A stretch of DNA of 64,000 nt, taken from assembly GCF_000376385.1 (NCBI RefSeq), contig NZ_AQWN01000011.1, positions 62,001 to 126,000 on the forward strand, given 5' to 3'. Below are positions 57,199 to 61,134 of the stretch, piece by piece (position 1 is the stretch's first letter; every line of letters begins with the position of its first letter). Below the pieces are notes generated by a model that searched no databases, was not told the origin of the DNA, and was given only the letters and a program-made list of their open reading frames with translations. A program made the translations under genes and the position numbers. Origin of the DNA: Desulfurispora thermophila DSM 16022 (GTDB lineage Bacteria > Bacillota > Desulfotomaculia > Desulfotomaculales > Desulfurisporaceae).

Positions 57199-57691
57199 GC
57201 AATTATATAGTTTTATTGTCGACCTGGCTAAACGCTGGCTGGCCCACGACGGGCTATGGTTTCAAGCAGTCGAGGAGATGCACGGTATGGAAGAAGCCAT
57301 CAAAGCCGACATCGCAGCATGGAGGAAATTCACAGTTATTGAAGCCAAACGAATCATGGAAATTCTGGGTGCTTCCCCAGGTCAGGGAATCCCAGCACTG
57401 AAAAAAGCCCTAGCACTTCGCCTGTATGCATTTATAAATAAACAAGAGATTATTGATGTTGACGATAACACGATCATTTTTCGCATGAACGATTGCCGGG
57501 TGCAGTCAGCTCGTAAACGCAAAGGTTTGCCCGATTTTCCCTGCAAACAAGTGGGATTAGTGGAATACGAATATTTCGCCAAAACCATAGACCCGCGTAT
57601 AAAAACCCGCTGCATTGCCTGTCCGCCTGACGAACACCCACCGGAATTTTATTGCGCCTGGGAATTCAAATTGAATGAAAGCGTTCAATAA
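57170..57691 (+). CDS. DUF6125-like conserved protein
   Basis: 173 residues, AAGGAGC before ATG. It overlaps the lyase gene by 29 nt. The C-terminal half has CRVQSARKRKGLPDFPCK and CIACPPDEHPPEFYCAWEF, four or five conserved cysteines suggesting a metal or substrate site. I associate it with the family DUF6125 found in anaerobes; function unknown. Confidence 0.8.
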   Translation: MTQLDSFSREQLYSFIVDLAKRWLAHDGLWFQAVEEMHGMEEAIKADIAAWRKFTVIEAKRIMEILGASPGQGIPALKKALALRLYAFINKQEIIDVDDNTIIFRMNDCRVQSARKRKGLPDFPCKQVGLVEYEYFAKTIDPRIKTRCIACPPDEHPPEFYCAWEFKLNESVQ

Positions 57692-57702
57692 GGCATAAAA
57701 GC

Positions 57703-57745
57703 AAAATTCCCACCTCTAAAATACTTTAGAGAGTGGGAATTTTTT
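57703..57745. terminator. Bidirectional terminator
   Basis: AAAATTCCCAC...CTCTAAA pairs with TTTAGAG...GTGGGAATTTT (one bulge), with T-runs on the plus strand and A-runs on the other side. It serves the lyase operon and the minus-strand microprotein operon. Confidence 0.88.
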
Positions 57746-57807
57746 GCTGTTCATTCTGTCCTCACCTTATGTATGTAATATTTATCTGCGTGATATAAAT
57801 CAGCCTA

Positions 57808-57891
57808 TTACCAGCGCTGGGAGCGGGCAATCACGAAGAAGAGACCCAGCATCAACAGGTTGTAAGGGATCATGGAAAACCATCTCAACAT
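57808..57891 (-). CDS. 27-residue membrane microprotein, copy 1
   Basis: The frame starts at ATG 57891 (GGAGGT is 7 nt upstream) and ends TAA at 57808. An ATG at 57897 is also in frame but too close to the ribosome-binding site. The product has an Arg near the N-terminus, a hydrophobic core (FSMIPYNLLMLGLFFVIA) and a basic end RSQRW. It differs from copy 2 by one conservative Leu/Val change. Third gene after the HD-GYP gene. No family known to me. Confidence 0.82.
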   Translation of the reverse strand: MLRWFSMIPYNLLMLGLFFVIARSQRW

Positions 57892-57992
57892 GTTCATTAC
57901 CTCCATCTAAAAGATTTTTTTAGCTTATTAGCAGGTAACCATGCACTATCGATTAAACTGATTTTTAGATCAAACCGCCTATCATTGAGTTT

Positions 57993-58076
57993 TTACCAGC
58001 GCTGGGAACGTGCGATCACGAAGAAAAGACCCAGCATTACCAGGTTGTAGGGAATCATGGAAAACCATCTCAGCAT
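57993..58076 (-). CDS. 27-residue membrane microprotein, copy 2
   Basis: ATG 58076 lies 8 nt after GGGGGG (58085-58090), which is inside the last codons of the HD-GYP gene; the start overlaps the HD-GYP stop by 7 nt. The stop is TAA at 57993. The sequence is MLRWFSMIPYNLVMLG plus a basic end, matching copy 1. Between the copies 8 of 27 codons differ, 7 synonymously, evidence that the peptide is under selection. Confidence 0.85.
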   Translation of the reverse strand: MLRWFSMIPYNLVMLGLFFVIARSQRW

Positions 58077-59344
58077 CCTATATACCCCCCTTTCATAAAC
58101 TTGTTATTTTGAGTTTTATCAATAACCCTGCAAAAAGCATCTACCACAACCGGGTCAAATTGACTTCCCGCATTCTCACGTAATATTTTCATTGCTCGAT
58201 TGCTGTCCATAGCTTTACGATAAGGTCTGTCAGTTGTCATGGCATCATAACTGTCGGCTACTGCCATAATTTTTGCCCCTAAAGGTATCTCTGAGCCATG
58301 CAACCCCAGCGGATAACCCCTACCATCAACCCGCTCATGGTGCATGAGAACAAATATTGCTCCATTTTTGTACATGTCTAGATTTTTCAAAATTTCGTAA
58401 CCGCTTTTGCTGTGCTGCTTCATCAACGCATACTCATCATCTGTTAAGGCATCCGGTTTAAGTAACACATTATCGCGCACTGATATCTTGCCCAGGTCGT
58501 GTACCATACCTGCCGTATATATCTGTTCCACTTCTTCGGGTGACAACTGCATCTCCTCGGCAATCATCCTGGCATACTCGGCTACTCTTTTGGAGTGCTG
58601 GGCCGTATACACATCTCGCAAATCAACGATTTCAGAAATGACCTCCATTGTTTTGCGCGTTTCCCTGCTGAGCTGAAAATAATTTTTAAAACTTAAATGA
58701 GCAGTTGCCAGGGGAGGTATTAGCAGGAGCATTCCCCAGGGCTGAACGCTGTATAGAATAACCATCAACATACTTATGGGTGCCAGGGTAGTAAAGTACA
58801 GCATTTTCATGCCGATATCACTGAATATGACATGCCCTAACGGTTTCTGGAGACTCAGTGCAACTATAATTGAAACAAGCAAAACATTTACTGTAACATA
58901 TACAAAACTAGCTATAACCAAAGCAGGCAAATCATCGGGTAACATAAACATTGCCGCCGATTTCTTGAAGAAGTAGAATGCCTCTCCCGTAAAAAAAATG
59001 GTTATAGCATACTGGCAAGCGTTGAATAGAAGCTTTTTCAAACCCCTTCTACCCCACGCATCGGTGACTACATTAGCAATTAATGACACGATAATGGCGA
59101 AGTCAACACCATAAATAATTACCATTGCCAAATTTATTGAGAACGACAGGGTTATCTGATCTTTCGTGTTCAGCAAGACCGGATTCATTTCGATGGGTAT
59201 GGCAAAAGCTACCCACAAAAACAAAACAGCAAGGTAATCAAAATTAAAACCTGCTACAGCTTTATAAATTACGAAAAGACCAATAACAACAACAAGATAG
59301 AAATAAAAACCAAATAGCCGTCTCGCCAATGCCGTATACGGCAT
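58070..59344 (-). CDS. Membrane HD-GYP domain protein (putative cyclic-di-GMP phosphodiesterase)
   Basis: 424 residues. Residues 1-220 contain about seven membrane helices of a MASE-type sensor. The HD-GYP domain has HSKRVAEYARM (250-260), HDLGK (282-286) and HHERVDGRGYP (335-345), all metal and GYP residues intact. It probably degrades cyclic di-GMP. GGGGGT precedes the ATG. Two 27-residue membrane microproteins follow, the first overlapping its stop. Confidence 0.95.
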   Translation of the reverse strand: MPYTALARRLFGFYFYLVVVIGLFVIYKAVAGFNFDYLAVLFLWVAFAIPIEMNPVLLNTKDQITLSFSINLAMVIIYGVDFAIIVSLIANVVTDAWGRRGLKKLLFNACQYAITIFFTGEAFYFFKKSAAMFMLPDDLPALVIASFVYVTVNVLLVSIIVALSLQKPLGHVIFSDIGMKMLYFTTLAPISMLMVILYSVQPWGMLLLIPPLATAHLSFKNYFQLSRETRKTMEVISEIVDLRDVYTAQHSKRVAEYARMIAEEMQLSPEEVEQIYTAGMVHDLGKISVRDNVLLKPDALTDDEYALMKQHSKSGYEILKNLDMYKNGAIFVLMHHERVDGRGYPLGLHGSEIPLGAKIMAVADSYDAMTTDRPYRKAMDSNRAMKILRENAGSQFDPVVVDAFCRVIDKTQNNKFMKGGYIGC

Positions 59345-59482
59345 TGTGCTTACCCCCAGGATGTGATATAATTATGTTTTGTCTACTTTCAAGGCTAATT
59401 ATAACTCTGCTTGATAAATAAATCAAGTAATATTTTGCCAGTCGCAAGAAAATTTTTTGTTTTTTTAAGTCAAAATTTTTGC

Positions 59483-61060: not shown

Positions 61061-61134
61061 TGGAGCGGGTGATGGGAATCGAACCCACGTACCCGGCTTG
61101 GAAGGCCGGTGCTCTACCATTGAGCTACACCCGC
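61061..61134 (-). tRNA. tRNA-Gly (TCC)
   Basis: Minus-strand cloverleaf. Acceptor GCGGGTG pairs with CACCCGC, anticodon loop CTTCCAA with anticodon TCC, T loop GGTTCGATTCC, encoded CCA. Confidence 0.95.

Follow-up and report, generated by a model that had tools for sequence, protein, structure and literature searches.

The window (the whole stretch of 64,000 nucleotides analysed here) carries on its minus strand a gene for a membrane-bound MASE9-HD-GYP phosphodiesterase followed by two short open reading frames (ORFs), each encoding a 27-residue peptide. The positions of these genes and of the elements around them are given in Table 1. The initial annotation had described two minus-strand ORFs, each with its own ribosome-binding site, the second of them overlapping the stop of the HD-GYP gene. 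Both ORFs and both Shine-Dalgarno (SD) sites were found, and the overlap is 7 nt. Copy 1 also has an in-frame upstream ATG, which would give a 32-aa alternative; the 27-aa start is favored on the basis of its SD site and of all the homologues. Beyond copy 1 lies a hairpin with a T-rich stretch, which is probably the terminator that closes the unit HD-GYP - copy 2 - copy 1; this hairpin was not among the sites listed by a consensus terminator scan. The simplest reading of the layout is that the HD-GYP gene, the two peptide genes, and the terminator form one operon. Promoter-like sites in the region are no more numerous than in shuffled sequences. A genome-wide search found no third copy in the 2.82-Mb genome. 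An ordinary tRNA gene is located at 61064-61134 on the minus strand.

Table 1. Features of the peptide locus in the window.
Feature	Position	Strand	Basis or remark
Micropeptide copy 1, MLRWFSMIPYNLLMLGLFFVIARSQRW	57808..57891 incl. stop; coding 57811-57891, stop 57808-57810	-	Sequence, ORF list
Micropeptide copy 2, MLRWFSMIPYNLVMLGLFFVIARSQRW	57993..58076 incl. stop; coding 57996-58076, stop 57993-57995	-	
Shine-Dalgarno GGAGGT, copy 1	57899..57904	-	7 nt before ATG 57891
Shine-Dalgarno-like GGGGGG, copy 2	58085..58090	-	8 nt before ATG 58076; within HD-GYP gene 3' end
MASE9-HD-GYP membrane phosphodiesterase gene, 424 aa	58070..59344	-	Pfam MASE9, HD_5, HD; catalytic motifs; AF2 model; PDB matches
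Promoter-like TTGATT-17-TATAAT, 5' of HD-GYP gene	59398..59426	-	Consensus match only
Hairpin + T-rich stretch, probable terminator	57700..57743	-	RNA fold z = -4.8 over 57690-57770

The two copies are 9 nt apart in 8 codons, of which 7 are synonymous and one exchanges Leu13 and Val, and this recount agrees with the initial annotation. Under neutrality, nine substitutions placed at random in copy 1 alter a mean of 6.0-6.5 codons. One changed codon or fewer has a probability of 4.5e-5 to 2.4e-4 across the transition biases assumed (neutral P < 3e-4). Tandem arrays of 2-6 copies were found in eleven genomes, and their 45 variable codons comprise 41 silent and 4 non-silent ones, none of the latter (0/4) within the last 6 residues. 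Since silent differences are present, the protein identity among array copies is not merely a result of recent duplication. The selection proposed earlier is therefore seen to be purifying. An N run (L043:7751-7955) and two contig breaks (the contig ends of L046 and L047) fall inside peptide arrays; thus, the assemblies probably underestimate array copy numbers. This codon pattern already contradicts the idea that the ORFs are chance frames or a noncoding repeat artefact, for which their very short length and a 113-nt repeat common to both window copies could be cited. We consider this explanation close to inconceivable.

Relatives of the peptides were sought in several ways. One window peptide searched against 113 genomes of the same class gave weak but repeated matches (E 0.004-0.6). 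A profile that includes the window copies recovers them at E 5e-16, a value that is partly circular. The class-level relatives were found in G031, G033, G056, G060, G026, and G030, and then as tandem arrays in G087, G088, G096, and G098. In a reverse search, genes for the membrane protein DUF5317 were listed for the class and for 398 phylum genomes, and 120 loci were scanned for the peptide. A profile of the LAGGA form of the peptide (A6) was also run on the 398 phylum genomes, and the peptide was found in 94 of them. At E 1e-3 this profile does not list the window genome (G000), so the window copies are linked to the LAGGA core via intermediates such as MLRWSTMIPYSLLVLMMMVLAGGAGRKWG and via the shared HD-GYP partner. 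Family membership was judged by a profile match and by the neighboring gene: the window copies match the profile of their relatives significantly and adjoin a MASE9-HD-GYP gene.

The relatives extend across Bacillota and were also found in Chloroflexota and Atribacterota. Homologues, whose absence elsewhere had been set beforehand as an outcome that would count against the peptides, are thus widespread. Among the named carriers are Thermoanaerobacterium saccharolyticum (L253), Thermoanaerobacter wiegelii (L255), Caldanaerobacter subterraneus (L258), Caloranaerobacter azorensis (L260), and Fervidicola ferrireducens (L264). Also among them are Atribacterota (L272, L274) and Chloroflexota such as Pelolinea submarina (L289), and a Bipolaricaulota bin (L279) is a more distant candidate. 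In most Bacillota the peptide lies just 5' of the HD-GYP gene, as with MKKATIIKVLLALLALALAGGANYTWG, and five copies of MRRWFSVLVMASFILSSIARCRW lie 3' of DUF5317 in G010. P. submarina has six copies of the 26-residue MLIVILTIALFVISAGAPSCTIGIGK, with only silent differences, 3' of DUF5317 (L289:4817-6017); the true start of this peptide may be further upstream.

Neither the window peptides nor ten relatives matched any Pfam or NCBIfam model above its cut-off. Sub-threshold matches were MgtU (E 3.5e-4 for one Bacillota relative, below the curated score) and PhrK (E 0.12 for one relative). The open-access papers searched contained no description of the peptide or of peptides paired with HD-GYP proteins. 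No description of the family was therefore found in curated families or in those papers, which agrees with the earlier statement that no such family was known.

The members of the family share one plan. They are 23-31 aa long, with a basic N-terminus, a stretch of 14-18 residues without charge, typically LAGGA or a related small-x-Ala site, and a Trp-rich tail of 3-7 residues. Among 77 distinct peptides, all 77 have a basic residue within the first 8 positions, and an acidic residue is present in 6. The median length of the longest run free of charged residues is 16 in the LAGGA group and 18 in the Desulfotomaculia-type group. A small/aliphatic-x-Ala site lies 3-10 residues before the end in 77/77 peptides, and Trp occurs within the last 6 residues in 63/77. 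In a chosen subset the small-x-Ala site was observed in 30/30 peptides vs a mean of 22.4 in shuffles; this test was chosen post hoc on related sequences and is weak evidence. When the peptides are aligned on GGA, LxLAGGA is almost invariant (positions -3 to 0 nearly so), after which entropy jumps in the tail and Trp is favored at +4. The tail is about RSQRW in the window, NLQWN in T. saccharolyticum strain NTOU1 (L253), and, for example, GHRW, NFRI, or NLKWT elsewhere. Trp and basic residues occur at both ends of the peptides, especially in the group of the window. A few members have Pro after the conserved GA (ASGAPKRW), and an alternative cut site is present there.

The contrast between core and tail was quantified in Thermoanaerobacteraceae, where exactly one match was found in each of 20/20 genomes. 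In an alignment of 19 sequences, residues 15-23 and Trp26 do not vary and the leader is nearly fixed, whereas tail positions 24, 25, and 27 hold 4, 7, and 8 residue types. The pN/pS ratio is 0.11 for the LAGGA codons and 0.66 for tail codons 24-26. The tail is thus freer or diversifying; the ratio of 0.66 is not above 1, so positive selection is not proven.

Next to the peptide, the recurrent neighbors in the class are the MASE9-HD-GYP protein (cluster C2) and the membrane protein of about 190 aa that contains DUF5317 (C4). In 86 loci of fixed order, in which a gene for a conserved protein of about 216 aa precedes the HD-GYP gene, the peptide occurs in the 5' gap of 76, compared to 1/86 on the opposite strand. 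These counts, like the conservation of the motif across phyla, also speak against chance ORFs. A qualifying ORF is present in 52/159 zones 5' of the HD-GYP/DUF5317 block vs 4/370 zones of other genes used as a control. Of 398 phylum genomes, 94 have the peptide and 90 of these have DUF5317, 24 have DUF5317 only, and 280 have neither (Fisher P = 5e-61, a nominal value, as the genomes are phylogenetically non-independent). DUF5317 is thus a usual but not obligatory companion, and the class-level listing of DUF5317 genes contains none from the window genome. The best 30 phylum matches all lie between the about 216-aa gene and the HD-GYP gene, including cases with DUF5317 on another contig, and HD-GYP is therefore the constant partner. 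The tie to HD-GYP noted at first for the window is thus conserved across phyla. These sequence comparisons give good support to the view that both window ORFs are genuine genes, under selection and linked to HD-GYP.

The protein of about 216 aa has no Pfam match. Its gene immediately precedes those of the peptide and HD-GYP in 87 loci out of about 150 (e.g., L255:1865-2515 and L220:6085-6735), often in a neighborhood with S30AE, secA, and prfB genes. It was not found in the window's genome in a search that had no positive control and shows little. At one Thermoanaerobacter-family locus (L362:2284-4088, G504), two frames share the HD-GYP coding sequence, which is possibly a decaying copy. A general linkage to MASE9 proteins was also considered and rejected: 15 loci of MASE9-type proteins from outside this HD-GYP lineage contained no family-like microORF and only a few weak hydrophobic ORFs without the motif.

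The location of the ORF could mean that it is a cis-acting leader, whose translation regulates HD-GYP, DUF5317, or secA by coupling, attenuation, or nascent-chain arrest while the peptide itself is dispensable. In many Bacillota the ORF is about 80-150 nt 5' of HD-GYP and upstream of secA, and the overlap of copy 2 with the HD-GYP stop would also fit. The array position, however, varies by lineage among 5' of HD-GYP, 3' of HD-GYP, 3' of DUF5317, and 3' of OppF, which argues against a cis-acting leader and for action in trans. In the window and the Desulfotomaculia-type relatives the ORF is 3' of HD-GYP/DUF5317 or behind OppF and is often present in several copies. Its conservation at the amino-acid level extends along the whole length, and 24 residues would barely fill the ribosome tunnel. 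A leader function is therefore improbable.

Another possible explanation, raised in the initial annotation, is a type I toxin-antitoxin pair, in which a small membrane-damaging peptide is repressed by an antisense RNA. The peptides are short and hydrophobic with a basic end, and some type I toxins likewise occur in tandem. But no antisense gene was seen: there was no Rfam antisense match, and the region has no excess of promoter-like sites. One specific enzymatic partner is kept in synteny across phyla, and the single copy in every Thermoanaerobacteraceae genome also disagrees with a toxin. We regard this alternative as very improbable.

In the window HD-GYP protein the HD, HHExxDGxGYP, and other catalytic residues are intact, and its AF2 model (pLDDT 92) matches solved HD-GYP domains in the PDB. 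The membrane part of the model, MASE9, matches the ECF S-components RibU, ThiT, and FolT with a target TM of about 0.6-0.7 and weak E-values (0.01-1). This S-component-like fold suggests, but does not prove, that MASE9 is a membrane sensor for a small ligand. A model of DUF5317 (pLDDT 84; L101:1420-2001) had no match among solved PDB structures; the conserved features of this protein are an Asn and the NGGxMP and SxGD motifs. In the open-access literature no paper was found on DUF5317, and the sole text match for MASE9 was an unrelated cancer paper. TM0504 is a Thermotoga peptide linked to c-di-GMP and exopolysaccharide; no paper on it was found in the open-access literature. The window HD-GYP protein is a clear member of the MASE9-HD-GYP phosphodiesterases, for which, as for DUF5317, no peptide partner is reported in the papers searched.

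Other genes near relatives of the peptide point to peptide signaling. AgrB-like genes were detected only in L194, L229, L230, and L231 among the scanned DUF5317 loci. AgrB was confirmed with Pfam in the first three, each with a TIGR04223 AgrD ORF. These loci combine DUF5317, AgrB, AgrD, and an HD-GYP protein (L229:429-4542, L230:3946-7531, L194:3382-6252), and the HD-GYP protein is a GGDEF-HD-GYP protein in L229 and L230; in L231 the AgrB-like gene is near DUF5317. Established peptide signaling therefore occurs in the same context, suggesting that the peptide signal is exchangeable. The window peptides differ from AgrD, a cyclic lactone autoinducer, in that they have no TIGR04223 match and no ring residues, and no AgrB was apparent among the window neighbors inspected.

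The peptides also resemble the precursors of linear pheromones (Phr, PapR, SHP, and cAD1/cCF10 types) in that basic residues at the start are followed by a hydrophobic part and a short C-terminal segment. The LVLAG stretch recalls the enterococcal pheromones. In several relatives the genes of an oligopeptide importer (an OppA-like protein, OppBC, and OppDF) adjoin the peptide; these are a minority of the relatives, and the window is not among them. However, the window peptides and relatives match no curated pheromone family above cut-off, their tail is only about 3-7 residues long, and they occur in several phyla. The fixed neighbor here is a membrane c-di-GMP phosphodiesterase instead of an RRNPP-type cytoplasmic regulator, and no RRNPP receptor was present among the neighbors scanned. 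Most genomes have one peptide copy in a housekeeping-like neighborhood (S30AE, secA, and prfB genes), unlike typical mobile quorum-sensing cassettes.

Small membrane protein regulators of the KdpF, CydX, AcrZ, and MgtS type offer a different comparison. Like them, the peptides have one hydrophobic segment in about 25-30 residues and a gene beside that of a membrane partner. The peptide could thus be a resident, uncleaved regulatory or assembly subunit. Its small-residue face (LAGGA) would pack on DUF5317 or on the helices of MASE9 and so adjust how active or stable HD-GYP is. A subunit would fit the constant linkage to membrane proteins, the vertical inheritance within a conserved neighborhood, and the Trp and basic residues at both ends. 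It would also fit the near-invariant LxLAGGA, which resembles a helix-packing motif, with its GA kept even before Pro. On the other side, no similarity to these regulators was found above cut-off, and tandem arrays (up to 6 near-identical copies) and a variable tail with a fixed Trp are unusual for them. The uncharged stretch of the LAGGA group is short for this role, and AgrB/AgrD genes occur in some sister loci. A resident subunit is possible, although we are inclined to doubt it. Given the uncharged stretch, the small/aliphatic-x-Ala site, the variable tails, the arrays, and AgrB/AgrD or Opp nearby, an exported and processed peptide is no less likely than a single-pass protein that stays in the membrane.

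The best reading, to which we give an even chance, is that an exported autocrine peptide gates the c-di-GMP phosphodiesterase. From the family, its selection, linkage, arrays, and variable tail, all of which are demonstrated here, we infer export, cleavage, MASE9 sensing, and an effect on c-di-GMP. Each peptide would be an export signal, with a basic n-region, a short hydrophobic core, and a small-x-Ala site, carrying a very short signal at its C-terminus. Signal peptidase, DUF5317, or another protease would cut off the leader at the membrane, and the MASE9 domain would then sense either the freed tail or the peptide while still anchored. HD-GYP activity would respond to this binding, and the cell would thereby read its own and its neighbors' peptide output as a c-di-GMP setting; tandem copies would raise the dose. 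The anatomy of the peptides, the selection in arrays, the linkage to HD-GYP, the varying array position, the S-component matches of MASE9, and the nearby Opp and AgrB/AgrD genes are consistent with an exported signal. Several observations fit it less well. Pro after GA, as in a few members, is disfavored by signal peptidase I, although the other cut site is available. The variability of the tail may reflect relaxed constraint rather than diversification, the Opp genes adjoin the peptide in no more than a minority of relatives, and most genomes have a single copy in a housekeeping-like setting. The S-component E-values are weak and the small-x-Ala test was post hoc.

More tentatively, a secreted peptide of a few residues may directly gate a membrane c-di-GMP phosphodiesterase in an ancient, vertically inherited autocrine system, with MASE9 as the receptor and DUF5317 as a processing or sensing partner; besides Bacillota, the system would occur at least in Chloroflexota and Atribacterota. 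As general types, peptide signals and small membrane regulators are familiar, and the novelty would lie in their link to a c-di-GMP phosphodiesterase. Such a system would have been overlooked because precursors of 23-31 aa are below gene-calling limits, and with no Pfam or NCBIfam model for ORFs of 23-31 codons, annotation pipelines have probably missed a large family.

The second messenger c-di-GMP sets motility, biofilm, and sporulation decisions, and we know of no input for most membrane HD-GYP enzymes. The family gives context to DUF5317 and MASE9. A conserved peptide gene beside one HD-GYP lineage makes the question of input directly testable, and tractable carriers such as Thermoanaerobacterium saccharolyticum exist.
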